A stretch of DNA of 31,848 bases from IMG/VR virus record IMGVR_UViG_3300043434_000352, positions 1 through 31,848 of that record; one strand, given 5' to 3'. A model generated the notes under the pieces. That model was given only the letters and a program-made list of their open reading frames with translations, did no database searches and was not told the origin of the DNA. Numbering within the stretch: position 1 is the first letter of the stretch; every line of letters begins with the position of its first letter. Both the position numbers and the translations under genes were made by a program. This stretch comes from a virus. Shown piece by piece: positions 9,285 to 31,848 of this stretch.

Positions 9285-9462
9285 TGTGTTCCTCTGCTCG
9301 CCAAAGACTAATACCCTGAGTTATGTCTTTTGCTTTGTTTCTTTCAACATACGAAATCCTAACATCAACGTTTAAGTCTTGTAGATCTTTCATAGCTGTG
9401 TTGACTTGTTCAACCAGTGATTTTAATTCATCTACTTTGGATACTATTACTGGATCTTTCAT
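9271..9462 (-). CDS. Small hypothetical protein, 63 aa
   Basis: Not recognised. Residues about 5-30 form an amphipathic, probably coiled-coil helix (VDELKSLVEQVNTAMKDLQDL). Its start overlaps the folE stop (ATGA) and its end overlaps the next gene by 14 bases, so it is translated with folE. Confidence 0.6.
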   Translation of the reverse strand: MKDPVIVSKVDELKSLVEQVNTAMKDLQDLNVDVRISYVERNKAKDITQGISLWRAEEHNGYL

Positions 9463-10178
9463 CGTGGTGCAAACTCTTGCTGTAATTTAATATTGTCAAA
9501 GAATTCTTTCTTTGCACCAGGATCGTTTTTAAAGAAACCTGTAAGCACCGTAGTCTGTGTGAGGCTACTATGTGCCATAATGCCACGATTCTCACAGCAT
9601 CCATGTACCGCTTGAATATAAACGGCTACATTTTCTGAGTTGGTGGCTTTTTGTATTTCCCTAGCAATGTCATTACAAAGTTCCTCCTGGAGAGTACCTC
9701 GTCTTGCACACCACTGGGCGATACGGGTGTACTTGCTGAGTCCGATAAGTTTCTCAGCGGCAATAATGCCAATATAAGCAACGCCACTAACGGGTTGGTG
9801 ATGATGGCTACACATACTGCGAAGCTCACTGCGAACAACCAACATACCTTCGTAGCGGTCCTGCGAGTCGTTGGGAAATGCTGTTGCGTCTGGTGCTGGT
9901 TCATAACGTCCTGCCATAATTTCATTGTAGTACATCTTAGCAAGTCGTCTTGCAGTACCTTTACTGTTAGGATCGTTTTCACGATCGATCAGCAATGCAT
10001 CTAATACGCTTTCAAACGCCGTTGTTGCTTCATTGATTAGTTGATCCTTTTCAACATCACTGATGTATTCGCTGATGTTGTCGCCTGCCCAAAATCGTTT
10101 ATTGTCTTGGCGCAGCCTGTTGCGGATTATCTGACTAAGAGGTCTACCGTCTTCTTCTCTATAATGTAATACTGTCAT
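9459..10178 (-). CDS. folE: GTP cyclohydrolase I
   Basis: A 239-residue FolE. It converts GTP to dihydroneopterin triphosphate, the first step of both folate and 7-deazaguanine synthesis. Zinc ligands of the family are visible as Cys123 and His126 in MCSHHHQPV and Cys194 in AVHGCCENRG. The IGLSKYTRIAQW segment and the RR.LQEEL-type helix also match. Length matches bacterial enzymes (about 220), with an N-terminal extension. It is the first gene of an operon with its own promoter (10221-10249) that also encodes queE and metK. With QueD and DpdA in the neighbouring operon this points to DNA base modification rather than folate supply. Confidence 0.93.
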   Translation of the reverse strand: MTVLHYREEDGRPLSQIIRNRLRQDNKRFWAGDNISEYISDVEKDQLINEATTAFESVLDALLIDRENDPNSKGTARRLAKMYYNEIMAGRYEPAPDATAFPNDSQDRYEGMLVVRSELRSMCSHHHQPVSGVAYIGIIAAEKLIGLSKYTRIAQWCARRGTLQEELCNDIAREIQKATNSENVAVYIQAVHGCCENRGIMAHSSLTQTTVLTGFFKNDPGAKKEFFDNIKLQQEFAPR

Positions 10179-11846: not shown

Positions 11847-12804
11847 TGCTGTATATTTCCTTTGTTAATTCATCTAAACTTCGATTTATTTCGTTTCTAT
11901 AAGGTAGACCATTATATTTTTTACTAAAATGATCTTCTAGTTCGTTGACAATATGGTCAACAAATTCAAAGCCTGTGGCTTTTTTTCTTGCAATCATATC
12001 TGGATACACTTCTTTAAATCCCTGTAACTTTGTGGAATTAATACCCAGTTTACCATTATACCTATCTTTGATTAGATTTTGAAACCAGTTAAGTCTAGTA
12101 TATGATAGCACAAGACCCGGCGTCCATTTCCACCACTGATAAATTGCAGGTCTATTATGTAATAGATTGTATTTGTCACAGCCTATATCGTGTTCAAAGT
12201 CCTGCGCCAGCCAGATGCCCGGTTCTGAATAATCTTCGTTGGATCGATACCAGCGAACATCACTGTGCCCTACGATTATTAATCCATCTGCACAGTCTGT
12301 GAACTTGATATGCGGAAGCATTCTTGGTCTATCAACTTGTGCTTGCTCTGAAATTAGTTCTGCATCATTGCGGTAAAATCGTTCTAATTCAAAGTCAATT
12401 AGATTATATTTTACACCCAGTATATTACACACTGTAATAGCATAGCTTACGTCATATATATTGTAGTCTTTTTCATAGCGAACAATATAAACTTCAGGGT
12501 TAGCACCTATATCTAAATATGCTCTAAGTATAAGTTCACTGTCTGCTCCACCACTGAAAAACACACAGGGCTTTAATCCAGGATAATGATCCAGCGTACT
12601 CGCTGCCGCTTTTTCTAGTTCTTCCTTGAAGCCACTGATCTTACCTGTGAACCCACATGTATAGCTGGTGTTAAATGGTAATTTTCCTGTTTGTCTACCA
12701 AACACGGGATCTGAACCATAATTCCATTTGTACCAATTATTTTCGCTGGTCCACATGTTCGTAAGTTCCAAATAACCAGTCCCAGATAGAAAAGAATAGT
12801 CCAT
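11839..12804 (-). CDS. PP-loop protein, asparagine-synthetase/amidotransferase-like
   Basis: A 321-residue protein with PP-loop SGGADS at 84-89 after a hydrophobic strand (CVFF), followed by Rossmann-like alternation. The arrangement is similar to the synthetase domain of asparagine synthetase and to N-acetyl-sugar amidotransferases. No glutaminase domain and no QueC zinc motif are seen. In this sugar cluster it may adenylate and amidate a sugar or sugar acid, possibly the product of the neighbouring UDP-sugar dehydrogenase. It overlaps the hydroxylase gene by 68 bases if the ATG at 12804 is used; an internal ATG at 12756 would cut this to 20 bases. Neither start has a strong ribosome binding site. 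Confidence 0.7.
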   Translation of the reverse strand: MDYSFLSGTGYLELTNMWTSENNWYKWNYGSDPVFGRQTGKLPFNTSYTCGFTGKISGFKEELEKAAASTLDHYPGLKPCVFFSGGADSELILRAYLDIGANPEVYIVRYEKDYNIYDVSYAITVCNILGVKYNLIDFELERFYRNDAELISEQAQVDRPRMLPHIKFTDCADGLIIVGHSDVRWYRSNEDYSEPGIWLAQDFEHDIGCDKYNLLHNRPAIYQWWKWTPGLVLSYTRLNWFQNLIKDRYNGKLGINSTKLQGFKEVYPDMIARKKATGFEFVDHIVNELEDHFSKKYNGLPYRNEINRSLDELTKEIYSND

Positions 12805-13180
12805 AATTCTTACTGGCTTGTCTGTGATGTATTAGATGCCACTGTCCCGAAGTAAACACTGGTATATCTATATTTTTATTATGCTCTAAGGTTTCCTGAA
12901 AGCATGCCGCCCATATATAATATAACACACTGATCCACCATTGCCCTGTTATCCAACTAAAGATTAGAGTAGGGATTACTTCGGTAACATATAAGTCTAG
13001 TGTACTGGTCCAAGTATCGTTGAATAAAAATAGATTATTCCAGCGCCAGCCAGAATTTCCATGTTTAACTATAAACACATGATGATCCCAGTGCCATTCT
13101 CTGACGTAGGGCATATTATGTGCGATGCGATGTACCCAATATAGTACAAAAGTCCAGACAAAGAAATATACAATAAACAT
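12737..13180 (-). CDS. Fatty acid hydroxylase/sterol desaturase superfamily protein
   Basis: A 147-residue membrane protein with the superfamily's histidine boxes: HRIAH (17-21), HWDHH (30-34) and HLIHH (115-119), plus His100 between them. These bind the di-iron centre that hydroxylates or desaturates lipids. It is short compared with typical members (about 200-350) but retains all three boxes. Hydrophobic segments flank the boxes (about 1-15 and 66-95). It starts by TAATG overlap with the glycosyltransferase. A lipid-hydroxylating enzyme next to glycosyltransferase and sugar genes suggests remodelling of the host envelope, perhaps lipid A or membrane lipids; the substrate is unknown. Confidence 0.85.
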   Translation of the reverse strand: MFIVYFFVWTFVLYWVHRIAHNMPYVREWHWDHHVFIVKHGNSGWRWNNLFLFNDTWTSTLDLYVTEVIPTLIFSWITGQWWISVLYYIWAACFQETLEHNKNIDIPVFTSGQWHLIHHRQASKNYGLFFSIWDWLFGTYEHVDQRK

Positions 13181-15132: not shown

Positions 15133-16013
15133 AATTTTTCTATTTGCCTGTGAATCCAAACGTCCTGAGCAAGTTGATCAGCCCAAAAGTCATTGTTATT
15201 TAGGTTGTTAATTGCCGTTTCTATCATAGTCTTGTATGCATCTTCTGGACATAATCCTAGAACAAATTTAGCGGCACTGTTCTTCATGTCAAAACTGATA
15301 TAGACGTCATCGGCCTTATCGTCTTTCCAATTGGCGGTTAATACCCACGTAGTATTGCCATTCTTAAATTCAAATTCACAAAAATCGTCGACATCATAGA
15401 TACCGTCTTTGTTAACAATACCATAGTCTGTGTCGTTGACTGAGTCCAGTGAGTGACGTTGCACTGCTGTAGCATATAGCTTATTACCTTTTGTGTAATC
15501 AGTCAACGCCACATAATAACTTAACATATGTGGCATAAGATCACGACTGACACCACCAAAGGCTAATTCTTTAGTAGTGAACCAGCTACCTGGATTTGGA
15601 ATACGATTTTTATTATTCCAAACAAGTCTAACAGTTTGGCTTTGGTCCGCCAATGTTTTAAATTGATCAATAGTGTCTCTATATTGATTATTTTTAACCA
15701 TCATAAAACGAGTCTGCGGATAATCAATGCATAGTTGGCGCCATGCTTCACTGTTGGCCACACCGGGCTTTTCTACAAAAACTACTTTGCTAAGTGCGGC
15801 TACTTTCCGTGCCAATTTAATATGTGTAAAGTTTGGTGTACAAATATTTACAGTATCAAAATTACCATGAACACGAACAGCATCATCGATGTTTGAAAAA
15901 TCAGCACCTTTAGATGGGTCCATGTCCACAGTGACAACTTCATAACCAAGTTCAGTTAGCACAGGTTTGTATACAGCCTGTCCAAAACCTAATCCAATTA
16001 TCAGTGACTTCAA
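15129..16013 (-). CDS. Gfo/Idh/MocA-family NAD(P) oxidoreductase
   Basis: A 294-residue protein with the family's N-terminal Rossmann motif (IIGLGFGQA, residues 5-13), an ICTPNFTH strand-turn and the signature EKPG at 81-84, followed by a beta-rich C-terminal domain. Members oxidise or reduce sugars and their derivatives, often at C3 or C4 of nucleotide sugars. Length is slightly below the usual 330-350. ATGA overlaps on both sides tie it to dpdA and the alcohol dehydrogenase. Substrate unknown. Confidence 0.85.
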   Translation of the reverse strand: MKSLIIGLGFGQAVYKPVLTELGYEVVTVDMDPSKGADFSNIDDAVRVHGNFDTVNICTPNFTHIKLARKVAALSKVVFVEKPGVANSEAWRQLCIDYPQTRFMMVKNNQYRDTIDQFKTLADQSQTVRLVWNNKNRIPNPGSWFTTKELAFGGVSRDLMPHMLSYYVALTDYTKGNKLYATAVQRHSLDSVNDTDYGIVNKDGIYDVDDFCEFEFKNGNTTWVLTANWKDDKADDVYISFDMKNSAAKFVLGLCPEDAYKTMIETAINNLNNNDFWADQLAQDVWIHRQIEKL

Positions 16014-17533
16014 GCTATTTCCCTTAACAATACGTCGACGTCTTCTTCAGACCAGTCATCAATCTGTGCCGCATCATTGTCGCTGCCTAAATCTGCTTCA
16101 AACAAATTGTTAAATGCATCAGCACTACTCTTAATAGTCTTTTTGCTGTTAAACTCTGCAATTAAGTTTTCTGCACGAGCCAGTTCAGTCATAGGCGTCT
16201 CTGATTCAAATACTCTATTAACTAATTCAGTCATATAAACTAAATTCTTTGGAACCCAGTGGCTAAACTCTCCGCCTTTGCTCTTCGTCCAGGTACCTGG
16301 ATCGGGCTTATACATTTCGCAGGCCGCATCGGTAAGCATATTAGCACGTTGAACAGAATCCAAGTGTTGATAAACATTATGACCCATTTGTAAGAAGTAA
16401 CTAAAGCTATCCCAGCTAGTTTTACCTTCTTTACCGATCTTATTAAGCATGCCAGGTGCGTAGTAACATACATCGCCCATAGTCATACGCTCACCTACTG
16501 GACTGTTCCAGGGCCAGGGAGTTTTACTTCCTGCCAATCTCTTGTCGTCCAGCGCTTTATCCATGATATAACTAAAACGGTTATTACGATGTACGTGTTG
16601 CGTATATACCTGACCTTTGGCAGTTGCAATGAACGGACTAGCACAGTCATAGGTCAGTGTGATGTTAGGGTTGACATGTTTACGTAGATTGCGTTGCATG
16701 GCAGTTGCCAGTACTGCCCATTCCAGTTTACTTGTACCCAAGTAGTGAATAAGATCACGTCCTGGCTCTAGTAATTTCTCATCACGCATTATAATCAATC
16801 TTCGCAGTGCTAGATTTGCATCGCGCATGTTCAGACCACCCATAGCCCAGCCTTCAAAATCATAGTGCTTGACTTTGTCATACCAGATATCTGCATCTGC
16901 ACCATTCTGTCCTTGTAACACGTTCAAGAACTTGGTCTTACCTTTGCGATTTTTAACAAAGTAATCATTGTTGAACATTGTTGCATTGAGTGCATCACCG
17001 AAACTTTTCATTCCAGTCATTTCTCTGAACTTACCTTCAGTGGCACGAGTTGGAATATCCAAGATCATCGAATAATCAGCAGTTTCTTCCAGCCAGTTTA
17101 AGATACTGTCACGAACCTTATCGGCGTTACCTTTGTAACCAGTGTCTCCTCGCTGTTCATAAAAATGTTCCCAGTCAAACTTAATCTGTCCATTACCAAT
17201 TTGGAATCCGCCCGAGTCACCTAGAATCATGGTATCTTTACGATTTCTACGATGAATCATGCTTTCTTCTGTTCGGCTCTTATCCACATCAAGTTGTGCA
17301 TGACCTGCAGAATACAATGCCCAGGGATAGTAATAATATGCCTGCTCCTTGTTAAGGAAGTTCATACCCTCAATACCGTTCTCAAACTCAGCGGGAATAC
17401 GATCTTTACTTACATATTCTCCGTGATGTTGTTTGCTTACATAGGCATTATAAAAACTGCTGATACTGGGAAGAAACACAGCATAATCTTTGTTCCTTTC
17501 CCATAAGTCGACTCTTGTCTTTTTAGATAGCAT
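16010..17533 (-). CDS. dpdA: DpdA-type 7-deazaguanine DNA transglycosylase
   Basis: A 507-residue TGT-superfamily protein. Family signatures are DSGGFQ at 106-111, LDIPTRA near 159, LQGQ at 206-209, a GG pair at 232-233 (WAMGGL), and TYDCASP at 294-301. In the last, Asp296 lies at the position of the bacterial TGT nucleophile. The DpdA branch inserts 7-deazaguanine bases into DNA in place of guanine and protects phage DNA from host nucleases. It is longer than tRNA-specific TGT (about 375) and the CxCxxC zinc site is not obvious. It sits in the clamp operon, two genes downstream of queD; folE and queE are in the next operon. The DNA (not tRNA) substrate is inferred from phage context and length. 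Confidence 0.88.
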   Translation of the reverse strand: MLSKKTRVDLWERNKDYAVFLPSISSFYNAYVSKQHHGEYVSKDRIPAEFENGIEGMNFLNKEQAYYYYPWALYSAGHAQLDVDKSRTEESMIHRRNRKDTMILGDSGGFQIGNGQIKFDWEHFYEQRGDTGYKGNADKVRDSILNWLEETADYSMILDIPTRATEGKFREMTGMKSFGDALNATMFNNDYFVKNRKGKTKFLNVLQGQNGADADIWYDKVKHYDFEGWAMGGLNMRDANLALRRLIIMRDEKLLEPGRDLIHYLGTSKLEWAVLATAMQRNLRKHVNPNITLTYDCASPFIATAKGQVYTQHVHRNNRFSYIMDKALDDKRLAGSKTPWPWNSPVGERMTMGDVCYYAPGMLNKIGKEGKTSWDSFSYFLQMGHNVYQHLDSVQRANMLTDAACEMYKPDPGTWTKSKGGEFSHWVPKNLVYMTELVNRVFESETPMTELARAENLIAEFNSKKTIKSSADAFNNLFEADLGSDNDAAQIDDWSEEDVDVLLREIA

Positions 17534-18857: not shown

Positions 18858-19595
18858 TTACCTCGTATGTCCGGGAAGGATATAATTATAGACACCTATA
18901 CCACTGTCAATAGTAATCATACAAGCTACTTGACTAAAGTGTACGGTACAGTCACCACTCATACCCAATTTGAGAATACTCAAAAACTTGTCAATAGGCC
19001 AAGCATAGCCTTCTTTCATAGTTCCTGTGACACCTTCTGCAAATGTCATCTTACCAAAGTGACTACCACCTACATCGCTACCAAATACAAAAACTAAGTT
19101 TCCGTTTTCAGTTTTAACAGTAAAGGTTGGTTCAATACTGGCATAGATACCAGCTTTTTGGCTCATCTCACTGACTTTACTTTTCTTTGGCTCAAATTCA
19201 ATCTCCCACTTACTGCCTTTAAAGCGGCTAGTAGTCAACTGTGTGTCAATGATTTCTTTGCTCATTAAACGATAACGATCATTATTACCGTCTGTGTCCT
19301 TGAACACTAAGTAGTCCGGAATGGTTTCACCATTCTTTTCCACAGTGGATACTTCTACGTCGGAACCCTCTTTGTTATAGAGTCCTACGATACCATTTAA
19401 GAAACCAAGATTGCCTAATCCTAGTTCACCTTCTAATTCAGGTAATGGTGTTTTTAGTTTTGCTTCCAAAACTACATTGCGTTTATCATCACAGGTCCAA
19501 ACTTCTGTGGCACTTGCATCACCTGTGAGTTTTGCTAGTTCAAAGAAGCCAAGGCTGGCTGTATGTCGCACGATATCAAAAATTGCGTCTTTCAA
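18858..19595 (-). CDS. 45: Sliding clamp (T4 gp45-like), TTG start
   Basis: A 245-residue DNA sliding clamp of the T4 gp45 type (T4: 228). The trimeric ring tethers the polymerase and, in T4, activates late transcription. Similarity is modest but recognisable: GFLNGIVGLYN near residues 64-74 matches the T4 GFLGILSL region, and the C-terminal domain repeats the same strand/helix pattern. The position just downstream of the polymerase supports it. The start codon is TTG, preceded by AAAGGGGA at 7 bases; no ATG is nearby. It is the first gene of a long operon that includes queD and dpdA. The promoter is at 19615-19643. Confidence 0.85.
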   Translation of the reverse strand: MKDAIFDIVRHTASLGFFELAKLTGDASATEVWTCDDKRNVVLEAKLKTPLPELEGELGLGNLGFLNGIVGLYNKEGSDVEVSTVEKNGETIPDYLVFKDTDGNNDRYRLMSKEIIDTQLTTSRFKGSKWEIEFEPKKSKVSEMSQKAGIYASIEPTFTVKTENGNLVFVFGSDVGGSHFGKMTFAEGVTGTMKEGYAWPIDKFLSILKLGMSGDCTVHFSQVACMITIDSGIGVYNYILPGHTR

Positions 19596-22898: not shown

Positions 22899-23152
22899 GG
22901 TTTTTGAGTGAATAGTTCGATTTCTTTTTGGCGTTGCTTAGCCATTTCATCTGATCTACGTCCAGATGCCACAACCCATTTAGCCAATTCAGTGGGCACG
23001 GAAGACAGTTCATTTTTATTAATAACTTTGAGCAGTGTACTATTTTTAAATACATCTACTCCTAAGTTATCAATAAATTCTTCCAGTGCCTTAGTTTGAT
23101 TTTTGTTGAGCGTCGTTTTAACTAACTCTTTTATTATTTGTTTTGAAGTCAT
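22895..23152 (-). CDS. GH24 lysozyme-like fragment without the catalytic lobe
   Basis: An 85-residue protein that matches only the C-terminal part of T4/lambdoid-type GH24 lysozymes (about 150-165). It has NKNQTKALEEFIDNLGVDVF then STLLKVIN, followed by VPTELAKW near residue 54 and the tail RSDEMAKQRQKEIEL. These correspond to the family's LTxxQxDAL.SF..NvG...F..STLL..lN, W..AGG and GLxxRRxxExxL segments. The N-terminal lobe with the catalytic Glu-x8-Asp-x5-Thr is missing, and no such sequence precedes the frame. The ATG at 23152 overlaps the dps stop as TAATG, so this appears to be the complete modern gene. It may bind peptidoglycan or be an evolutionary remnant reused for another purpose. 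Confidence 0.62.
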   Translation of the reverse strand: MTSKQIIKELVKTTLNKNQTKALEEFIDNLGVDVFKNSTLLKVINKNELSSVPTELAKWVVASGRRSDEMAKQRQKEIELFTQKP

Positions 23153-23595
23153 TAACCGCGTTGTTTGAGTATAGATGTCAGCATCCAAGCATGCTTGGCA
23201 TGTGCATCTTGACGTTCTGCCATTAAATTAGACAGTGCATAATTCCCCGCCGCTTCTGCCAGTCTATAGCATTCAACTATGCTGGTTAGAACTACTGCGT
23301 TGTCCGCCAATAATTTTTCCATCATGGAACGTGCTGTGGGCATTTCTATCTGATCTTCCAGGTCCGTTAATTGACTGAATCTAGTAAAACTGCCTGGCGC
23401 ATATGCACCCAGTGTGCGTACACGCTCTGCTATAATGTCTATACTACCATAGACTTCTTCATACACACTGCCGAAAAAACTATGATATTGTGGGAAGTCT
23501 GGACCCTCTACGTTCCAATGAAAGTTTTGTGCCTTTAAGCTGAATGCATATTCATTTGCTAAGACACGTTTAAGGGCTTGTACTAATTCATCCAT
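23152..23595 (-). CDS. dps: Dps-like mini-ferritin
   Basis: A 147-residue Dps-family protein. Dps forms a 12-subunit shell that oxidises Fe(II) with peroxide and protects DNA. The inter-subunit ferroxidase residues are His26, His38, Asp53 and Glu57, with the same spacing as in known Dps proteins, in NFHWNVEG and YGSIDIIAERV. The ATG at 23595 is chosen because AGAGGA stands 7 bases before it and a late promoter (23616-23623) lies inside the longer frame. The N-terminus lacks the Lys-rich DNA-binding tail of E. coli Dps. It ends in a TAATG overlap with the lysozyme-like gene. As a late phage gene next to an AT-hook protein it could protect or compact DNA, or scavenge iron and peroxide. Confidence 0.95.
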   Translation of the reverse strand: MDELVQALKRVLANEYAFSLKAQNFHWNVEGPDFPQYHSFFGSVYEEVYGSIDIIAERVRTLGAYAPGSFTRFSQLTDLEDQIEMPTARSMMEKLLADNAVVLTSIVECYRLAEAAGNYALSNLMAERQDAHAKHAWMLTSILKQRG

Positions 23596-23615
23596 GTTGA
23601 TTTCCTCTGTTATAA

Positions 23616-23623
23616 TATTTATT
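23616..23623 (-). promoter_or_regulatory. T4-type late promoter (AATAAATA)
   Basis: Minus strand AATAAATATTATAAC, matching the T4 late consensus TATAAATACTATT in most positions and sharing ATAAATATTATA with the element at 922-929. A start about six bases downstream leaves a leader of about 15 bases containing the AGAGGA ribosome binding site of dps. Confidence 0.65.
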
Positions 23624-23668
23624 TCTGACATAGATTGATGTTTAATACTTTACATTGCTCTGTACTTT

Positions 23669-24649
23669 TTATTTACGGCTCTCTGCCACAAAACGTAATG
23701 TCTCAATCCACTCACGAACTTTCTTAGGACGTCCACGACCACGTTTAGGTGCATTTGGATCTGGTAACGGGTTTTTACGAGGACGACCACGACTTTTCTT
23801 AGGAGCGTTAGCATCTGGTACAGGACGAGTGCGAGGACGGCCGCGACCGCGTTTCGGTGCATCTTCACCGTCACCTGAGTTATCATCATCTTTGACATTC
23901 TCTGGGTCATCGCCGCCATAACGTTTGGTGCTTCTGTGTACTTGTCCGGTTTTTGTATATTCTACTTCGCCCTTACTTGTTCTTTTCTTGTCACCGGCTT
24001 TTGGTGCATCTTTTTTATAGGACAAGTCTAACCAGGGATTTCTTCCTTCAAAAACACCTTCCTGGTGAATTCTCTGTCCGCCCATGTAGTCCTGTGCGTC
24101 CTGTTCAAATTTTGACTGGACCCAGTCAAAAGGATCACTATCACGGCCTTTGGCCACACCATAGGGCATTTCACCGTGATCACTGTAATAGTCGTATAAA
24201 GCATGATATAAATCAGTGTCTAAATCATGCCCGTTTACAAAATTCTTAACTTCGTGCTTGAAACGATTGACAATGTGCTGTAGCGTTTCTGTATTTTCCA
24301 TCATGTGCATGCCGGCACTTTCGCCCATGCCAGGCTGTCCTATACGTTGTGCGGCAGCTTGTGCCATTTCAGGACCGCGATCTCTGGCTAACATATTAGC
24401 CATAGGCTGCATTAATTTATGGAATCCAACAGGATCTGCCAGTGCATGTAGGAATTGTTCTTGTTGTCCATTGGCAAGAGCACGTTTATAAAGACCATAG
24501 ATAAATCTTGCTTCAGGGTGTTCCAGAGTAATAGGTTCATTGCCCAGCATTATTTCAGCATCACTGCCAGATGTCGCCGCCTGCGCAATATTCTTTAGGT
24601 TGTTTGCACCGCCTAAAATAGGACTTTCAAAAAGTTCAAATAATTTCAT
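23669..24649 (-). CDS. Triple AT-hook protein with capsid-targeting-like leader
   Basis: A 326-residue protein. Residues 1-8 (MKLFELFE) look like a T4 capsid-targeting sequence ending in a [L/I]-x-E cleavage site. Residues 9-260 are mostly helical with no recognised domain. The C-terminus carries three AT-hooks, GRGRPR, SRGRPR and GRGRPK, with an 18-residue period (about 266-310). AT-hooks bind the minor groove of A/T-rich DNA. Ribosome binding site AAAGG is present. It ends just before dps. It could package with or compact phage DNA, or bind host DNA after injection. No other phage protein I know combines a capsid leader with AT-hooks, but that is memory, not a search. Confidence 0.75.
   Translation of the reverse strand: MKLFELFESPILGGANNLKNIAQAATSGSDAEIMLGNEPITLEHPEARFIYGLYKRALANGQQEQFLHALADPVGFHKLMQPMANMLARDRGPEMAQAAAQRIGQPGMGESAGMHMMENTETLQHIVNRFKHEVKNFVNGHDLDTDLYHALYDYYSDHGEMPYGVAKGRDSDPFDWVQSKFEQDAQDYMGGQRIHQEGVFEGRNPWLDLSYKKDAPKAGDKKRTSKGEVEYTKTGQVHRSTKRYGGDDPENVKDDDNSGDGEDAPKRGRGRPRTRPVPDANAPKKSRGRPRKNPLPDPNAPKRGRGRPKKVREWIETLRFVAESRK
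23720..23854 (-). repeat. Triplicated AT-hook coding repeat
   Basis: Three imperfect tandem copies of a 54-base unit encode APK[R/K]-x-RGRP[R/K] followed by a Pro/Asp/Asn linker (for example VPDANAP). The third copy loses the linker. Synonymous differences between copies show that the duplication is not recent. Confidence 0.75.
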
Positions 24650-24664
24650 GTTCTTTGCCTTTGT

Positions 24665-24874
24665 TTATTCTTTATTAGATCCGTGCTCTAATACATTCAA
24701 CTTATCCTTTTTGGCTTTAAGTTCTTCTGATTCTTTTTTTGCTCGCTTACGAGTCATCGCCATATTGCGTTTCATAGGTACTGCAAATATACTGCCTGCA
24801 GGAGCAGTAGCAAAACTGCCACTGCTTATGCCACCCACACTGCCGTCTTCGCTGATAAGTTCTTTAATTTTCAT
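24665..24874 (-). CDS. Small leader-bearing protein, 69 aa
   Basis: Residues 1-9 (MKIKELISE) form a capsid-targeting-like leader with an I-S-E site. After it comes a Gly/Ser/Ala stretch (GSVGGISSGSFATAP) and then a charged helix (about 35-62, Lys/Arg/Glu-rich). Cleavage would leave about 60 residues. The start has no ribosome binding site, and the late promoter element lies 5 bases before it. Function unknown; an internal head protein is the simplest reading. Confidence 0.65.
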   Translation of the reverse strand: MKIKELISEDGSVGGISSGSFATAPAGSIFAVPMKRNMAMTRKRAKKESEELKAKKDKLNVLEHGSNKE

Positions 24875-24879
24875 AGTTA

Positions 24880-24887
24880 TATTTATG
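24880..24887 (-). promoter_or_regulatory. T4-type late promoter (CATAAATA) abutting a start codon
   Basis: Minus strand CATAAATATAACT directly followed by ATG at 24874. In T4, transcription starts about six bases after this element, which here is the A of the ATG. The resulting mRNA would be leaderless. Confidence 0.55.
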
Positions 24888-24905
24888 CGAATTTATTCGA
24901 TTTAA

Positions 24906-26225
24906 TTATTTGGAACTGGCGGCTACTTCATCTAGTAGCGGACCTTTTTCAATGATGTTTCTTATATAACTAGATCCATCTTCTTTAAATTCATTTTTAG
25001 CTCTGACTGTTATTAATACTTTACCGCTGTTGGCATCCTTGATTTGAAGCTCAGGCATAGTTTTAGTTCCAACATATGCAGAAGTTAAATCAATCCCTCT
25101 TAATTTACTCTCCAGTGCATTAAATCGCAGTATTTTATACTTGCCTTTGGTACCTAGCTGAACGATACTTACACCGGGATCATTTAGTGTTGCAAAATAT
25201 GTTATAGCGTCTGCAACATTTTTAATTAAATCATATTCTTTGGCATCATCATCACCGTCGACCTGAGCCGCAATATAATCTGCAATTTTTGCATACATTG
25301 CACCCAGTGCTCCTGTGGGATTTTCTGCATACATTTCATTATAATGTGGTTCTAGAGCATCTATATTGATACCGAACATACCCCATAATTTCTTCATACT
25401 GGCAAATTCAATTCCACCAACTTGTCCGAATTGCTTCACTGGGCCTACTTTAAGACTGATAGACAGCTTACCACGTTTCATCTGTTTGGTCTTATGATCT
25501 AGTATCTCTAATTCAATATCTGTTTTACGTTCTGTTTCTCCACTGACACCATCGCTTATAACTCGTATAGTATCAGCTTTGCCATTTGTATAGAAATATC
25601 TACTATAACGAGTAGCGTGACTGCTGTTAATATAAGAAGTTGCACTGTCAACTAATTCTTGAAAGTCTGGGTGTTGTTTAGGGTCTGTTAATGCAGCATA
25701 GGGTGCAGATTTCAGTCTCAAAACGAATGTTATATGGTCTGCAATTTTGCTGCCCGAGTCTTTGACATCTATACTATATTCATCTGTATTTGATTGTTTA
25801 AGATTGTAGATAACATTCCAAACATCCTGTGTATTTACAGAACCAATACCAGTACCAGTTTCTCTAGCAGTAAATTTAGCAAACATTGCGGCGCCTAAAA
25901 TGCCTTCTGCGATCTCGCCTCTATTTGCTGTGGGATTTACAAAACTTTTCTCAATAGCACCTTTTGTGCCGACAAGAGTAAACATATTACCCTTACTGTC
26001 AATCATATTGATAATGTCTGTGCCCTTACCAACAGTAAGAGTTCTACCTTCAATTTTATTTTTGCCTGCGGCTACTTTGATTTCTCCGCTGAGGTCAATA
26101 TCAACTTCTGCGGCCACAGTCTTTAACTTTTGCCCAGGAGCCCCGTCACTGATCAATAGTGTATAACCAACAGGTTTATCAAACACACTGGCTTCGTTAA
26201 GTGGTATAAGTTCTAAAATTCGCAT
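24906..26225 (-). CDS. Hypothetical leader-bearing protein, 439 aa
   Basis: Residues 1-11 (MRILELIPLNE) form a capsid-targeting-like leader ending L-N-E. The rest is a globular alpha/beta protein that I do not recognise. It has an RGEIAEGILGAAMFAKF helix near residue 101 and a DIELEI / GKLSISLKVG pair of strands near 237-262. The latter faintly recalls the D...xxK arrangement of PD-(D/E)XK nucleases, which is suggestive only. No membrane segments. The start is 6 bases after the upstream stop with GAAGG as a distant ribosome binding site. If packaged and injected, a nuclease-like activity would be notable. Confidence 0.7.
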   Translation of the reverse strand: MRILELIPLNEASVFDKPVGYTLLISDGAPGQKLKTVAAEVDIDLSGEIKVAAGKNKIEGRTLTVGKGTDIINMIDSKGNMFTLVGTKGAIEKSFVNPTANRGEIAEGILGAAMFAKFTARETGTGIGSVNTQDVWNVIYNLKQSNTDEYSIDVKDSGSKIADHITFVLRLKSAPYAALTDPKQHPDFQELVDSATSYINSSHATRYSRYFYTNGKADTIRVISDGVSGETERKTDIELEILDHKTKQMKRGKLSISLKVGPVKQFGQVGGIEFASMKKLWGMFGINIDALEPHYNEMYAENPTGALGAMYAKIADYIAAQVDGDDDAKEYDLIKNVADAITYFATLNDPGVSIVQLGTKGKYKILRFNALESKLRGIDLTSAYVGTKTMPELQIKDANSGKVLITVRAKNEFKEDGSSYIRNIIEKGPLLDEVAASSK

Positions 26226-26231
26226 AATAAG

Positions 26232-26429
26232 TTATTTACCTTCAGTCTTACTTTTACAACCTTCCCAAAAGCTGGGATGTGTACTAGCACCAGGGCAATC
26301 ATATTCGTCGTCTATGTCTTTTTCACTGGCCCAGCGATAACCGGCAATGTGCCCACTACAGTCTTTGGTACAGCGATAGCCTTTATAGGTAAACCCCGCA
26401 GGAGCTTCTGTGATGTCTTTGATCTTCAT
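26232..26429 (-). CDS. Cys-rich leader-bearing small protein, 65 aa
   Basis: The ATG at 26429 overlaps the upstream stop as ATGA; the longer frame to 26453 lacks support. It starts MKIKDITE (leader with an I-T-E site), then a Cys-rich body: YRCTKDCSGHIAGYRWA around residues 18-34, then CPGASTHPSFWEGC. Four cysteines with paired spacing suggest a metal-binding or disulfide-bonded mini-domain. The DCSGHxAGYxWA phrase is one I recall from other phage proteins of unknown function. Confidence 0.7.
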   Translation of the reverse strand: MKIKDITEAPAGFTYKGYRCTKDCSGHIAGYRWASEKDIDDEYDCPGASTHPSFWEGCKSKTEGK

Positions 26430-26875
26430 AGCTGATCCGTCCAGACTTTCCAAGCTTCTTCTAGTTCTTCCAGTATTTCTGATTCATTTTTGGCACGGCC
26501 ACTTTTCATATTAGCGCACCAGTGATACATTTTAGCACGTTCGCCACTGGCGTTTTTAGCTTTTGATCTAAGATCTGTGACACTACCACTACAGCTCGCA
26601 CCTGAACGTTTTACTCTACCTGGTCTACTTTTACCTTTTATCTTGCCATCTGCAAAATTTTCTACAACTTGTCTAAGTGCACTATTGATAACAGGCTGAT
26701 CTAAACTGTGTCCACCTTCCATGACTGCTAGTTCCAGATCTGTAAACTTACTTTCTGTTTTTCTAGTCTGCTTGGGACCTTTGCGTTCTTTCCAACGCTT
26801 GTCTGTGCTACAGTAATACTTACCGTAGCCTTCTTTTAGATCGTCATCTTCTTCATGAAAATCGCTGACTCTCAT
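26426..26875 (-). CDS. Basic Cys/His-containing leader-bearing protein, 149 aa
   Basis: Starts MRVSDFHEE, the most divergent of the leaders (F-H-E instead of I/L-x-E). It has two recognisable blocks: YYCSTDKRWKERKGPKQ near residue 20, and a basic stretch (KGKSRPGRVKRSGAS) leading to CSGSVTDLRSKAK and MYHWCANMK. Similar blocks occur in T4-like marine phages as far as I recall, without known function. The high basic content suggests DNA or RNA contact. Coupled by ATGA on both sides. Confidence 0.7.
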   Translation of the reverse strand: MRVSDFHEEDDDLKEGYGKYYCSTDKRWKERKGPKQTRKTESKFTDLELAVMEGGHSLDQPVINSALRQVVENFADGKIKGKSRPGRVKRSGASCSGSVTDLRSKAKNASGERAKMYHWCANMKSGRAKNESEILEELEEAWKVWTDQL

Positions 26876-27264
26876 GCATTTTCCTGTCCGCTGATAGCAC
26901 TTCTGGTATTGACGTCACTGCGTTCATAACTACCACTGTCACTGATGTTTTTACCTGTTACACCCATTAGTTTATCTGCACGTTCAATGGTATTCACATC
27001 TGCGTCCGTATAGCCAACTAGACCAACGTTTTCACTCCATGCACTTTCTTGTTCAAAATCTTCCATGCTTTGATTTGCGGCGGCCGCGGCTAATGCAACG
27101 CTGTATCTATATTGCATATAAACGTCTGTATTTCTCAGTTGGTCTATGACTCTAGCATTAGGGATAGCCGCAGATACTTCGCCGGATAGTGCTTTCGATG
27201 TACCATAGTTTTTTTGTCCGCCATGGTGCCTATCTTCTTCATTTAATAATTCTAGTAATCTCAT
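26872..27264 (-). CDS. Leader-bearing protein, 130 aa
   Basis: Starts MRLLELLNE, a capsid-targeting-like leader with an L-N-E site. The body is acidic to neutral, with an Ala-rich helix (MQYRYSVALAAAAA) and no recognised domain. It starts 3 bases after the amidoligase-like stop and ends in ATGA with the next gene. Function unknown. Confidence 0.65.
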   Translation of the reverse strand: MRLLELLNEEDRHHGGQKNYGTSKALSGEVSAAIPNARVIDQLRNTDVYMQYRYSVALAAAAANQSMEDFEQESAWSENVGLVGYTDADVNTIERADKLMGVTGKNISDSGSYERSDVNTRSAISGQENA

Positions 27265-27267
27265 ATT

Positions 27268-29778
27268 TTAACCCATTATTGGCAGAACATCTAGTTCTCT
27301 GGCATCGATATTTCGCCCTTGTCTTCGTTGAGTATCGACCCACTGTTGTGCAACTCTGTTAGCATCTGATTGGCTGTTACCTACACCGCTGAATCTATAA
27401 AGCTCGCGACCGTTGTTATCAACTACTTGCCATGAACCAGTAAAGCCACCTTGTGCTCGTTGTTGCTGTAAGTCTTGTGTGCTACCTTGAACCGAAGTCT
27501 GTGCAGGTGCTTGTAATACACTACGAACATCAAATAATTGAGGAGCACCTAGATTAGCGGCCGCAATGACTTGTCTTGCTCGTTCTTCGGCATCATCGGG
27601 ATTTCGAGCATTTACGTATAATGGTTGTCCATTGTGCTCTACAGTGCGGCCATCACTGATACGATAGATTTCATATCTAGAGGTTGGTCCTGTAGATTGG
27701 TTAAGTGACCTATAACCATAATTTTCTGTGTCATGGGGGAATCCAAACACATCAAGAACTTGTGTATATTTTCTCTGCGCTTCTGAATCGGTGTTAGCAA
27801 TAAATTTGAATACACTTCGATTATTACTGCGATCTACTATTTCGTAGTTAGCATCTGCGGCTTGCCCGCCCCAGCCCAGTCTATTTTCTATGTCAGTTTG
27901 ACTTAATTGATTTCTAAAACCACTGTCTGATGTTGTATTAGATTTGCTGCCCAATCTTCTAATACCAAATGTATTCCTAGCTTCCTGACTGTTTAGTCTA
28001 TGGGGTCCCATTTGAATATAGTCATCTAAGAATATAGCGGCATCATCGTCATTGTCAATTTTAGCAGGTGCGGCTTCTAATGCATTGCCTGTTTGCTTGT
28101 TATAAATCTCGTAGCGATAAGTTTCAAAAGGACGCACAGGCTTAGCTTCCATGTCGTTGGCTCTGGACCAGTCCGGATATTCCACTTTGCCTTTTTCAAT
28201 AGCTTCTTCTCGGCTGGTGGCCACTACTTCTACACTGGCGCCGTAGCCAGGACGACTGACTCTCCACCAGTATTTTTTACCAGCAGTAGGATCTTCCTTG
28301 TTTACTTTGCGTTCCAATTGTGCTTGACGAATAAAACTCTTTAATGCCTGCTTGGGTAACTCTCCGGCGGCGTACTGTGCAAAATATGTCAGTGTACTCT
28401 TACCTTCTTTGGGATTTAATAACTTATAAAGTTTCTTAGCATATTCTTGTTTGTATTTTGTTTCATCGGCGGCTGCATCCATGGCAACTACAAAACGTAA
28501 TAATGTGGTTTCAATTTTGTCAAAGTTTTCGTTTAACCAATCGCCGCCAGGACTGCGGAACTCAATGTAGCCATTTTTTGTATTGATACTAGTATACTTT
28601 GTAGTGCTACCATTGTGAATTATCTTGGCTGCACTAGTATTCAAATGGTCCTTCATTTGATTTAACAGTTTTTCTGCATCATCGGGTTGTTGTGCAATAT
28701 GATCTTTGACAATCTTCAATGCACTTCTAGCATAGGTATTTCCAGTACGGCCAAACTCTTTTAATACATATTCGTCGCCGAGCAATACGGCAAGTTTAAC
28801 ATAGTCCAATTTGGATAAATCACCCTGCCAGCCCGGAACACTGACGTTAATATGCAAGCCCGTACTGTCATTGGTATAACAACCAGTTTTATCTGCCCAG
28901 GCTTTTACTTTTTTCAAGTCATCTAGTAATTCTGTTATAGGCAGCGCAGGGCTGACGAATTCCAAGCCGCCATCTCCGTCATCGTCGGGTTCATCTAAAC
29001 TACCATCAGGTTCTACAACATAATGTAAATCTTTGGCGCTGGGTCTAGCTACGCTACCGCTGTGATAACTTCCACTGGCTTCTACTCTTCGACCAATAGC
29101 ACGACTAAAACTGTCAGCGGCATCTTCTACACTGACTTCTCCACCACTGCCGGCGCTATAATAATGTGGCCAATTAATACTGTAGTTATCTTGTACGTCC
29201 CACATTGTACTGATACCTTGCTCGTCCAACCATTCGCTTTCTAAATCGGTGTCATTATAAAAGTCATCGGAGAAATCTTGGTAAGCATCGTCGTACCATG
29301 GATCAATTTGATCTTCTACTACTTTGTCAGCAGCATCTATATAATCTTGTTTTGAGATTTCATTTTCTTCGTTGAACTCTTTGCCAAGTATTTCTGCTAT
29401 GTCATCTTCATCGGCATTTTCACGAATCCATCTATAAACGACTTCAGTCATGTCAGAATCCCAGCGACTTTCAAGTTGTCCACCTAACCACTCTATATAG
29501 TCATTACGCATTGTATCAACTAATTCTTGTGCGTCTCTGCGGCTGTTGTGATCACCATCATAGTAAAAATGAAAAGCATCTTGAATACTGTTAATGCTTT
29601 CATCACTGTCCATGTCTGGCTCTGAATAACTGTCATCGTCTTCCTGTCTAGCACCGGGAACATACATTTCGAATTCCATGCCAGCACGAGCGTCAATATC
29701 GGCGGCCAGCGTTCTGAGACTGCTAGGGCTCATGTTTACTTCACTGATCAATGCTTCCTTGACTTCTATGTATTTCAT
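27268..29778 (-). CDS. Amidoligase-like protein with five C-terminal modules
   Basis: An 836-residue protein. It starts MKYIEVKEALISE (leader with an I-S-E site). The amidoligase (ATP-dependent COOH-NH2 ligase, glutamine-synthetase-like fold) signature follows: GMEFEMYVPG at 33-42, VVEPDGSL at 254-261, GLEFVSPALP at 271-280, TGLHINV at 306-312 and IEFRSPGGDW at 405-414. A long acidic insertion occupies about 43-240. The C-terminus holds five divergent repeats starting near residues 503, 555, 644, 701 and 782. Each begins [Y/W]-x-[V/I] with a turn, then a helix rich in Ala/Glu. Enzymes of this fold make amide bonds, such as peptide tags or peptidoglycan cross-links. The leader suggests packaging, so it might act in the host envelope after injection. 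Confidence 0.72.
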   Translation of the reverse strand: MKYIEVKEALISEVNMSPSSLRTLAADIDARAGMEFEMYVPGARQEDDDSYSEPDMDSDESINSIQDAFHFYYDGDHNSRRDAQELVDTMRNDYIEWLGGQLESRWDSDMTEVVYRWIRENADEDDIAEILGKEFNEENEISKQDYIDAADKVVEDQIDPWYDDAYQDFSDDFYNDTDLESEWLDEQGISTMWDVQDNYSINWPHYYSAGSGGEVSVEDAADSFSRAIGRRVEASGSYHSGSVARPSAKDLHYVVEPDGSLDEPDDDGDGGLEFVSPALPITELLDDLKKVKAWADKTGCYTNDSTGLHINVSVPGWQGDLSKLDYVKLAVLLGDEYVLKEFGRTGNTYARSALKIVKDHIAQQPDDAEKLLNQMKDHLNTSAAKIIHNGSTTKYTSINTKNGYIEFRSPGGDWLNENFDKIETTLLRFVVAMDAAADETKYKQEYAKKLYKLLNPKEGKSTLTYFAQYAAGELPKQALKSFIRQAQLERKVNKEDPTAGKKYWWRVSRPGYGASVEVVATSREEAIEKGKVEYPDWSRANDMEAKPVRPFETYRYEIYNKQTGNALEAAPAKIDNDDDAAIFLDDYIQMGPHRLNSQEARNTFGIRRLGSKSNTTSDSGFRNQLSQTDIENRLGWGGQAADANYEIVDRSNNRSVFKFIANTDSEAQRKYTQVLDVFGFPHDTENYGYRSLNQSTGPTSRYEIYRISDGRTVEHNGQPLYVNARNPDDAEERARQVIAAANLGAPQLFDVRSVLQAPAQTSVQGSTQDLQQQRAQGGFTGSWQVVDNNGRELYRFSGVGNSQSDANRVAQQWVDTQRRQGRNIDARELDVLPIMG
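27271..28272 (-). repeat. Five divergent protein modules in the amidoligase-like gene
   Basis: Modules of about 50-90 residues begin at YWWRVSRPG, YRYEIYNKQTG, ANYEIVDRSNN, SRYEIYRISDG and GSWQVVDNNG. Each shows a strand, a polar turn, a second strand and an A-x-[S/N]-x2-[E/D]-A helix start. The repeats are visible in the protein only, not as DNA repeats, so they are old. Confidence 0.55.
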
Positions 29779-29802: not shown

Positions 29803-29810
29803 TATTTATT
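29803..29810 (-). promoter_or_regulatory. T4-type late promoter (AATAAATA)
   Basis: Minus strand AATAAATACAGTATC, close to the T4 late consensus TATAAATACTATT, 25 bases before the ATG of the amidoligase-like gene. It lies in the 36-base gap after the partial upstream gene and would drive the packed gene block downstream. Confidence 0.65.
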
Positions 29811-29814
29811 GTTA

Positions 29815-31848
29815 TTATTTTGTTAGGTCTCTTAGGCCGTTTTGCTTTAACCATGCTTGATAAGACGCCATGCTGTTAAATTCCTTTTTCTGAATTTTAC
29901 TGCCAGTATCTTTATGTTTGTTAAAGAAATCGCGCATCTGCGACAATTTAGTAGGATCTTTAGCATCGTCATTGCCGGCAAAGTAATCACGCATAGTAGA
30001 TAAACTTGCTTCGTCTACTTCTTTTGCCGGCTGGTCTGGGTCATTTATGGGTACATTTTTGTATACACGTTTCTTCTCATCCCAGACAGTTTTTAGTGGA
30101 CCTTGTTTGGCACGTTGACCTACACGTTTAACTATCTCGTCCCAGTCTGGACCAAAGTCTATTTCTGCTTCTGTGACACCTTCTACTTTGGGATCAATGC
30201 CCTGTTCCTTTTGACTTTGCAAGTAATCCCAGATACTAACCAGCATCATTTCTGCCTTGGCTATTTTTTCCTGTCCCCACTCTGGTAGATTATCATTGTC
30301 CTGAATTGTTTTTAATAAGCCGGCAACGGCTCTTGCTGTAGTAAGTAAATTACTCTTAGCCATACCTGCTTCGTCATCGTATTCACCGTTGAACTCTCCG
30401 GCTTCGCCGACTAAACGACCTTTGTATGGATGTTGTTTTACTGGCTTAGCCAATACTTGACCTATCTTCTTGGCTTTTTCTTCGCCGGCAACTTGACCTA
30501 CTCTCTTTTGATCTACATCTAAACTTTCAGTTGCAGGCTTCACGGGAGGCTTAAAACCAGGTTTAGCTTCTTCTTTTTCTTTTTCAGCTTTTGCCTTTTC
30601 AACATCAATGACCTTTTGTTTCTCTGTGTCCAACCAATTCTTATTATGTTTCTCCAAATAGGCTTCTGCTTCCTTGGGACTCATCTTAGTTTTCCACTCT
30701 TCTGCTCTCCAACGGAACACGGGCTGTTTTAAGTATGCACTCTGAGCATGAAGATTTAAGAACTCTTGTATGTCACTTTCATCACCTACATGTTTTTCTA
30801 CCCAACGTTTAATGCCTGCTTGTATACTGTTTTCATCTGCGGCAAACAAGTCTTTGATAACTTGTATTACACTAGGTGCGGCATACGTACCAGCTACGCC
30901 AGCGGCCAGTGCAGTTTCTGCACCCAATGATGTTATTGTTGCGGCCGCACCACCTGCAGATGCCATGATTGGTGCTAATAATCCACTATATGCGAGTCCT
31001 GCGCCCACAGCACCTGTTGCTATCCATGGGAACGCCGTGGCAAACTTACGACCAAGATAACGTAATACGTTGGCACTCATTGTAGTTGGATCAAGAACTT
31101 CGTCAACCTTCTTTGGTAATTTTTTGTAGTCGGTATTTTTGTCTGCACTGTGGAATTCTTTACCCACTGCTGGACTTATACCAACCTTTTTAGCGAACTC
31201 TGGATTGTGTGCCACCGCAGCCATTGTACGGAATTGTGCTTTGCTAACTGATTTTTCGTCTAACACTGATTCTTTGACACAGTTGTTGACTCTAACGCCA
31301 CCCTTCATTTTAGTTCCTTGTTTTTTATAACCTGTCCAGCATTTAGGGTCGAGGCGAGTCTTTTCTTCATCTACGTTTGTCATTCTGTCCCAAGCACGAT
31401 CAGCAGTGTCTTTATTCTTCTTTGCGTATGCCGGATCAGTGTCTGCTTTTTTACTTGTTACTCTATCTACGGCACGTTTCTGTACCTTGGTCAACATCTT
31501 TTGACCTTGCGCTGTATCGCCGTATTCGTCTAGCGAGTCTTCTTTGACACAGTTATTAACTCGGGTGTCACCCTTCATTTTGGTACCCGACTTTTTATAA
31601 CCATCCCAGCACTTGGCATCTAAGCGTTGCTTTTCTTCCGCCACACCTTGCTTTGGTTCAAACACTGTGGGATAACCTGTTTTACGATTGTAAACTCCAA
31701 CTGTTTCGCCTTGACTGTTTCGAGCAATCACGCTGTCAACTGCACCGCCACCTTCTCGACGATTCCAAAACTTTACATCAGCACCGTGATCTTTGCGAAC
31801 TTGGTTGGCCCAGGATCTTACGCTGGCACCCCCGGAGCCTTCCGCCAC
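29815..31848 (-). CDS. Large repeat protein with hydrophobic hairpin, 5' partial
   Basis: Open at the window edge: 677 residues are visible and the first codon shown (GTG) is probably internal. Two copies of an EEK-x-RLD-x-KCW-x-GYKK module lie at about 71-108 and 161-198, each ending NNCVKE and then a S/V-LDE. Residues about 270-330 are an Ala/Gly-rich hydrophobic hairpin (two membrane-spanning segments, GAVGAGLAYSGLLAP and later). Around it are long charged helices (Lys/Glu-rich, 400-450). Short repeats TMRDYFAGND and QMRDFFN lie near the end. Several internal [L/V]-D-E triplets could be protease sites. It could be an internal head or injected membrane protein; no family is recognised. Confidence 0.7.
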   Translation of the reverse strand: MAEGSGGASVRSWANQVRKDHGADVKFWNRREGGGAVDSVIARNSQGETVGVYNRKTGYPTVFEPKQGVAEEKQRLDAKCWDGYKKSGTKMKGDTRVNNCVKEDSLDEYGDTAQGQKMLTKVQKRAVDRVTSKKADTDPAYAKKNKDTADRAWDRMTNVDEEKTRLDPKCWTGYKKQGTKMKGGVRVNNCVKESVLDEKSVSKAQFRTMAAVAHNPEFAKKVGISPAVGKEFHSADKNTDYKKLPKKVDEVLDPTTMSANVLRYLGRKFATAFPWIATGAVGAGLAYSGLLAPIMASAGGAAATITSLGAETALAAGVAGTYAAPSVIQVIKDLFAADENSIQAGIKRWVEKHVGDESDIQEFLNLHAQSAYLKQPVFRWRAEEWKTKMSPKEAEAYLEKHNKNWLDTEKQKVIDVEKAKAEKEKEEAKPGFKPPVKPATESLDVDQKRVGQVAGEEKAKKIGQVLAKPVKQHPYKGRLVGEAGEFNGEYDDEAGMAKSNLLTTARAVAGLLKTIQDNDNLPEWGQEKIAKAEMMLVSIWDYLQSQKEQGIDPKVEGVTEAEIDFGPDWDEIVKRVGQRAKQGPLKTVWDEKKRVYKNVPINDPDQPAKEVDEASLSTMRDYFAGNDDAKDPTKLSQMRDFFNKHKDTGSKIQKKEFNSMASYQAWLKQNGLRDLTK
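31255..31368 (-). repeat. KCW-GYKK module, second copy
   Basis: It encodes the second copy of the 38-residue module (visible residues about 161-198) in the partial gene. The core KCW-x-GYKK-x-GTKMKG-x2-RVNNCVKE is shared with the copy at 31525-31638, at about 90 residues' distance. Confidence 0.75.
31525..31638 (-). repeat. KCW-GYKK module, first copy
   Basis: It encodes the first copy of the module (visible residues about 71-108). The two conserved Cys (KCW and NNC) and the Lys-rich core suggest a small metal- or disulfide-stabilised unit. Confidence 0.75.

Follow-up and report, generated by a model that had tools for sequence, protein, structure and literature searches.

The 31,848-base viral fragment analysed here (IMG/VR record IMGVR_UViG_3300043434_000352; the whole stretch is hereafter called the window) comes from a jumbo myovirus and carries nearly all of its genes on the minus strand. 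Seven consecutive minus-strand genes between positions 23669 and 29778 encode proteins, here numbered cargo 1 to cargo 7 (Table 1), which begin with leaders of 8-13 residues that have K or R at residue 2 and a gp21-type site at the end, and these leaders are very probably capsid-targeting propeptides of the T4 type, subject to gp21-type cutting. This reading had been proposed from the letters of the window alone (the original prediction), and it is now supported by the presence of leaders on unrelated bodies, by a leader boundary at the start of the fold, by an S77 protease and a T4-order head module in relatives, by the same motif in the major capsid protein (MCP) and the scaffold of those relatives, and by mass spectrometry (MS) of cyanophage virions. 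All seven open reading frames (ORFs) were found on the minus strand with the predicted N-termini, and direct reading confirmed that six leaders end in exactly L/I-x-E, the cleavage motif of T4 gp21 (PMC9026906, hereafter the T4 review), and that cargo 5 ends in F-H-E. Cargo 7 has two possible sites (V-K-E at residue 8 and I-S-E at residue 13). The bodies are indeed unrelated: compared pairwise, the seven gave no match at E<=0.1.

Two rules were used to count such leaders. Under the loose rule a protein needs K or R as its second residue and an [ILVMF]-x-E whose Glu falls at residues 7-14, and the strict T4 rule admits only L or I two residues before the Glu. The loose rule is matched by 8 of the 43 window genes, with a longest run of seven that was reached by none of 5000 shuffles, and its background at internal methionines is 1.8%. 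Six of the 43 genes match the strict rule, whereas its background, taken from 8,622 internal methionines, is 0.85% (binomial P 1.7e-6); across 12 related genomes the strict count is 112 of 2,138 genes (5.2%). Like leaders use different synonymous codons, and hence the conservation lies at the peptide level.

The DNA polymerase of the window (PolB) is 78-82% identical to those of four IMG/VR contigs (G003, G005, G006 and G008), 76% to that of G018 (231.8 kb), which is a member of the window's clade, and 58% and 56% to those of G001 (354 kb) and G002 (335 kb); the nearest annotated phage by polymerase is Sinorhizobium phage Phosso (about 50% identity). The original prediction had advised a search of homologous phages for the leader followed by variable bodies, and syntenic arrays of leader genes were found in jumbo myoviruses, the leaders standing ahead of dozens of unrelated bodies. 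Such arrays surround the loci related to cargo 7 (28 loci) and to cargo 3 (80 loci), and by the loose rule their runs reach seven genes in G011, six in G003, five in G008 and G014, and four in G005. The seven adjacent proteins of G011 start MRAAEFITE, MRAVEFIAE, MRAQDFITE, MRATEFIAE, MRAQEFIVE, MRIRDIVE and MRATEFIVE, and MRASEFINE lies nearby. One loose pass sorted 152 leader proteins, those of T4 among them, into 77 families of bodies, some of them chance matches.

Within a family the leader is kept while its letters change. The cargo 3 family has a leader ending in [ILVMF]-x-E in 43 of 52 distinct homologues, variable in sequence and in length (10-16 residues), as in MRDLINIILNE|VTLSKY, MRLLELKQALNE|VTFSK, MRFTDFKLLPE|ASIQD and MKTFKRYLEE|AAPQK. 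A second family, a predicted ADP-ribosyltransferase (ART) found in the relatives only, has one in 45 of 49 homologues (for instance MRATEFIAE|GATDILYHYTG). The residue two before the Glu (P3) was L or I in 59 of 59 leaders of these two families (26 L and 5 I; 22 L and 6 I), although the search rule would have admitted V, M and F. In the AlphaFold model of cargo 3, residues 1-11 are the sole segment with a predicted local distance difference test (pLDDT) score below 50, which coincides exactly with the leader; in the model of the second family the sole disordered segment is residues 1-7 of a 9-residue leader. Leaders may also be exchanged in front of one body, which we claim only for such examples as MRLLELKE|AFDQPY and MRAQEFIVE|AFDQPY. 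These observations bear on one rival reading, namely that short charged N-termini resemble one another by chance or by the composition of translation starts and share no function. A loose-rule background of about 2% speaks for it, and some genome-wide matches, such as sliding clamps and a thymidylate synthase, are clearly of this kind. The run of seven that no shuffle reached, the excess under the strict rule, the differing synonymous codons and the retention of the leader in both families nevertheless make it extremely improbable as an explanation of the array.

The original prediction also called for gp21 and gp22 homologues outside the window, and in the relatives a gp21-type S77 protease and a scaffold were found, including in the clade member G018. 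The protease (Pfam PF03420) is present in G001, G002, G015, G016, G018 and G020, and also in T4, S-CREM2, S-SCSM1, CBB, Phosso, Atu_ph07, ACG-2014f and SCTP-2; phiKZ gave no match to PF03420 at threshold, and in this control 2 of 175 matched, which is at background, with no leader array of this type in 160 kb. In G001, G002 and G018 the genes follow the T4 order, i.e., portal, a small protein in the gp67 position, an acidic protein in the gp68 position, S77 protease, scaffold and gp23-type MCP, so that in G018 a T4-order head module and a cargo cluster occur in one genome. The MCPs of these three genomes carry L-A-E, L-A-E and L-M-E, respectively, shortly ahead of the conserved core; we infer the MCP cut site from this position, because the alignment is gapped there, the T4 gp23 propeptide being longer. 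The scaffolds of the relatives contain 19, 23 and 25 [IL]-x-E sites, compared with 7-8 in shuffles.

Evidence from particles comes from two cyanophages. The virion proteome of S-CREM2, given as 52 proteins with coordinates in Table 3 of PMC10665884, includes six of the seven S-CREM2 ORFs that pass the loose rule (Fisher P 0.0017, a small test). Four of them, the S-adenosylmethionine (SAM) hydrolase (MKDFDSFLEE), the kinase (MKRFDAFLTE), the cytidylyltransferase (MKNFSSFLTE) and ORF13 (MKDLHSFLTE), have clear leaders like those of T4 and are among the virion proteins without a structural role; the other two, MKQIIIHE and MKKLISE, may be chance matches. In S-SCSM1, NMNAT is listed as a virion protein by MS (PMC9602691), and its N-terminus reads MKSFLQFLKE|A. 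A leader that served to dock proteins somewhere else than on the capsid, such as at a replication compartment or the membrane, with L/I-x-E as an incidental feature, would not account for leader proteins in these virions, nor for a P3 that is always L or I, a boundary at the start of the fold, and the same site in the MCP and the scaffold, and we regard it as very unlikely.

Several points weigh against capsid targeting in the window's phage and have to be set beside this evidence. The 31.8-kb record is a fragment and itself lacks the S77 protease, which was seen in relatives only, and one of the seven leaders (cargo 5, F-H-E) departs from L/I-x-E. The virion evidence stems from S-CREM2 and S-SCSM1, which lie outside the window's phage and its jumbo clade, and the S-CREM2 authors caution that non-structural virion proteins are possibly lysate contaminants. 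CBB, a Rak2-like phage that has the S77 protease, has N-termini without a clear leader array; its 55 listed MS-detected proteins, whose ORF numbers were mapped in part, were counted as neither support nor refutation. Finally, leaders are highly variable, and those of unrelated bodies in the same genome are just moderately more alike (likeness 0.383) than pairs sharing neither genome nor body (0.338; 0 of 1000 permutations), the same body in other clades also giving 0.383. This weakly suggests a leader dialect inherited with the genome and not with the body.

With T4 as the analogue, targeting, cleavage and injection in the window's phage would proceed as follows. Late genes would each encode a protein with a propeptide M-[K/R]-...-[L/I]-x-E, which would bind the prohead core, so that the body, whatever its kind, would be enclosed as the shell forms. 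The S77 (gp21-type) prohead protease would then cut after the Glu and release the mature protein inside the head, where it would be packed with the DNA and from which it would probably enter the host at infection. Leader dialects that differ by lineage would reflect different core proteins, for which the statistics are positive but modest. The bodies would be interchangeable early-acting effectors, and in the window these would include cargo 3 as a predicted nuclease like HinP1I and MspI, a DNA-binding protein with AT-hooks and an amidoligase.

The last two members of this set had been named before, and both were recovered: cargo 1 carries three RGRP motifs, and cargo 7 matches Amidoligase_2 (PF12224) with 33.6 bits against a curated cut-off of 22 (E 5e-8). 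No Pfam match was obtained for bodies 1-6, and a PHROGs search of the window bodies returned only families of unknown function and one weak tail match, with none for cargo 1. The cargo 7 relatives that start MKYTEILEQLINE and MKYKEIFEQIINE retain [IL]-x-E ahead of [IV]NMSP, and the Atu_ph07 homologue starts MRWQDISSKKLTELKMNSS, with no clean leader. At the position of cargo 2, relatives have short bodies of GSGS type with the leaders MKIKELIE, MKIRELTE, MKIQELTE and MKIRELIE. The mechanical ORF of cargo 4 is longer, with an internal ATG as the coherent start, and this start is shared by a sister contig (MKIKDIAE), whose adjacent protein is 93% identical to that of the window; the counterpart of cargo 5 on that contig is a 481-aa version starting MKASEFI.... 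The G018 homologue of cargo 6 (45% identity) is encoded at another genomic position, yet it too begins with a leader, MKIKEIIKE.

Cargo 3 is predicted to have a fold of the HinP1I/MspI type, with moderate Z scores on a predicted model (pLDDT 86). Comparison of this model with known structures gave HinP1I (Z 8.4 over 218 residues), MspI (7.7), a further row (7.0) and HhaI (5.3), while the next, unrelated row reached only 4.3; the Foldseek match was 3.5e-4. MspI and HinP1I have an active site of the form D ... [N/Q]-x-K, and D236, S257, L258 and K259 are invariant across 31 cargo 3 homologues, so that, to judge from the residues, D236 ... S257-x-K259 would be the catalytic site. We lean, without great confidence, towards cargo 3 having nuclease activity. 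The ART family of the relatives, which occurs on viral contigs L292-L361 (phage contigs of up to 524 kb), has DarT and Tpt1/KptA as the top fold rows of its model (Z 8-11) and the conserved residues H17, S57, R60, E110 and E112 (E-x-E). When solved structures were searched by sequence, neither cargo 3 nor the ART family had a convincing relative, and both folds come from models only. T4 also packs an ADP-ribosyltransferase, Alt (T4 review). Domains in other leader proteins of the relatives, several by weak matches, are CTP_transf_like, DUF6267, DUF6321, GNAT, Pol-beta-type nucleotidyltransferase, GH19 chitinase, GP88, HAD-like and kinase-like.

The nature of the bodies bears on where they act. 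The leader could target the prohead while the cargo works inside the particle, in DNA condensation, scaffolding or head structure, and is not injected; the AT-hook protein and the small basic bodies suit DNA packing, a Dps-like gene adjoins the array, and T4 IPIII affects head assembly (T4 review). Enzymes with no evident structural role (the amidoligase, the nuclease and ADP-ribosyltransferase folds, GNAT, chitinase and nucleotidyltransferases) and a cargo set that differs between close relatives both argue against this, and we consider it unlikely. The cargo is probably injected to act on the host, and the individual proteins may each have an effector role there.

Table 1. Coordinates of the proposed cargo genes, their leaders and associated sites in the window.
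Feature	Position	Strand	Basis or remark
Cargo protein 1, 326 aa	23669..24649	-	C-terminal AT-hooks; orthologues with leader MKLFELYE
Cargo 1 leader MKLFELFE (L-F-E), predicted cut after E8	24626..24649	-	direct reading
Cargo protein 2, 69 aa, leader MKIKELISE	24665..24874	-	counterparts of relatives in same place
Cargo 2 leader, predicted cut after E9	24848..24874	-	direct reading
ATAAATA directly upstream of cargo 2	24880..24886	-	
Cargo protein 3, 439 aa, predicted PD-(D/E)XK nuclease, HinP1I/MspI fold	24906..26225	-	related loci; model
Cargo 3 predicted active-site stretch (D236 ... S257-L258-K259)	25449..25520	-	invariant in homologues
Cargo 3 leader MRILELIPLNE, predicted cut after E11	26193..26225	-	model disorder; conservation of R2 and E11 90% or higher
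TAAATA 8-13 nt upstream of cargo 3 start	26233..26238	-	position common to cargo 3 homologues
Cargo protein 4, 65 aa, leader MKIKDITE	26232..26429	-	sister contig
Cargo 4 leader, predicted cut after E8	26406..26429	-	direct reading
Cargo protein 5, 149 aa, leader MRVSDFHE	26426..26875	-	weakest of the seven (F-H-E)
Cargo 5 leader, predicted cut after E8	26852..26875	-	direct reading
Cargo protein 6, 130 aa, leader MRLLELLNE	26872..27264	-	G018 homologue
Cargo 6 leader, predicted cut after E9	27238..27264	-	direct reading
Cargo protein 7, 836 aa, Amidoligase_2 domain	27268..29778	-	PF12224; related loci
Amidoligase_2 domain of cargo 7	28537..29136	-	PF12224, residues 215-414
Cargo 7 leader MKYIEVKEALISE, predicted cut after E13 (or E8)	29740..29778	-	direct reading; relatives
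ATAAATA, T4-late-promoter-like, 24 nt upstream of cargo 7	29803..29809	-	weak on its own

The array had been described as late, and the placement of ATAAATA and TAAATA supports late expression. The window has six ATAAATA sites where 11 would be expected by chance, so that the motif is rarer overall, but five of the six are on the coding strand and most are near gene starts; the full late-promoter octamer of T4, TATAAATA, is absent from the window. In the window's clade TAAATA peaks 10-13 nt ahead of start codons, with 21 genes at exactly 11 nt, and it lies at 11-16 nt in 13 of 55 leader genes compared with 27 of 603 others. No such peak was seen in T4, S-CREM2 or CBB. There are hints in this spacing that late mRNAs of the window's clade are nearly leaderless.

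In the window, as in G005, G008 and the sister contig L006, polB is followed by small genes, then a Dps-like gene and then the leader cluster, an order kept more loosely in G001. The Dps-like ferritin gene (23152-23595; PF00210, 1.5e-26) lies between polB and the leader array, is conserved in relatives and is without a leader of its own. An extended version (23152-23631, MSEINIITEE) was considered as an eighth leader gene and rejected, since the start lies at 23595 (MDELVQ) according to gene calling, to the orthologues and to the position of an ATAAATA site. Upstream, the array is adjoined by a gene for a 677-aa protein (29815-31848) that contains two copies of the repeat RLDxKCWxGYKKxGTKMKGxxRVNNCVKE and many [ILV]xE sites; the repeat also occurs in a leader protein of G005 (MKIQELIE). 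The N-terminus of the 677-aa protein cannot be read because the gene runs off the contig. Elsewhere in the window, a GTP cyclohydrolase I (7558-8418; PF01227), a QueE-like radical SAM protein (9459-10178) and a 507-aa protein (16010-17533) that is TGT-like by eye, a reading with no Pfam match, are probably 7-deazaguanine DNA or tRNA modification genes. This phage genome also encodes a complete S-adenosylmethionine synthetase with all three Pfam domains (6117-7214) and a fatty acid hydroxylase domain protein (12737-13180; PF04116, 2.6e-15).

Proteins injected by large phages are mostly unknown, because their bodies lack recognisable relatives. A leader that predicts head loading would turn the search for injected cargo into a sequence search, which here nominates jumbo-phage effector candidates from dozens of families, and in the published virion proteomes of two cyanophages it picks out the enzymes that had no explanation. 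It would also give a reason why NMNAT-like and kinase proteins recur in cyanophage virions, a point that their authors leave open. Candidate effectors such as the nuclease, the ADP-ribosyltransferase and the amidoligase may act before host defences. As a tentative extension, which we put forward as a possibility with the odds against it, the array could supply effectors for a first strike on the host, with an evolvable address code directing them into the head, and this code could be read from sequence across far-T4 myoviruses; the set might include a capsid-delivered restriction-type nuclease directed at unmodified host DNA that spares the phage DNA (7-deazaguanine-type modification genes being present in the window), and relatives might deliver DarT-like ADP-ribosyltransferases likewise.

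The capsid-targeting sequence (CTS) itself is known from work on T4, and its use by relatives to load various proteins is already proposed in the T4 review; searches of the open-access literature turned up neither an account of such arrays in jumbo phages nor one of cyanophage virion enzymes that bear the leader. The Dar proteins of phage P1 (DarA, Hdf) are head-associated anti-restriction proteins that, in the portions of the literature available to us, are not described as an array with short L/I-x-E propeptides. The ejection proteins of phiKZ-like phages (SPN3US, phiKZ), like those proposed for the window, are packaged and matured by a prohead protease that cuts after Glu (P1), but the phiKZ sites are S/A-x-E (review), unlike the L/I-x-E of the window. 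The cyanophage virion enzymes (NMNAT/cytidylyltransferase, APH/ChoK-like kinase and SAM hydrolase of S-CREM2, NMNAT of S-SCSM1) have MKxFxxFL.E leaders, which are closer to those of T4, and the sections of the cyanophage papers that we could draw on make no link to a targeting leader. The closest parallel is the T4 CTS of IPI, IPII, IPIII and Alt, which, as in the window, is a short N-terminal propeptide on unrelated bodies, cut by an S77 protease after L/I-x-E, and some of whose cargo, such as Alt and IPI, acts on the host. The leader of IPII and IPIII, MKTYQEFIAE, has K as its second residue and F-I directly ahead of x-E, and our rule finds it in the T4 genome. Residues 4 and 7 of the T4 CTS are important for targeting and residues 8 and 10 for processing (T4 review). 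Its propeptides have about 10-19 residues, and 7 in Alt, for which the original prediction had inexactly quoted a leader of about 10; those of the window have 8-13. A further T4 protein, gp61.1 (18966-19130, NC_000866), starts MKTFKEFIKE, almost the IPIII leader, and is possibly another capsid-cargo protein. The window differs from T4 in its leader dialect (M[KR][IL]xEL.E, with MRAxEF[IL]xE and MRDLINILNE in relatives), in its cargo (a HinP1I/MspI-like nuclease and an amidoligase, with a DarT/Tpt1-like ART in relatives) and in number, since T4 has about four such proteins and the window has an uninterrupted array of seven.

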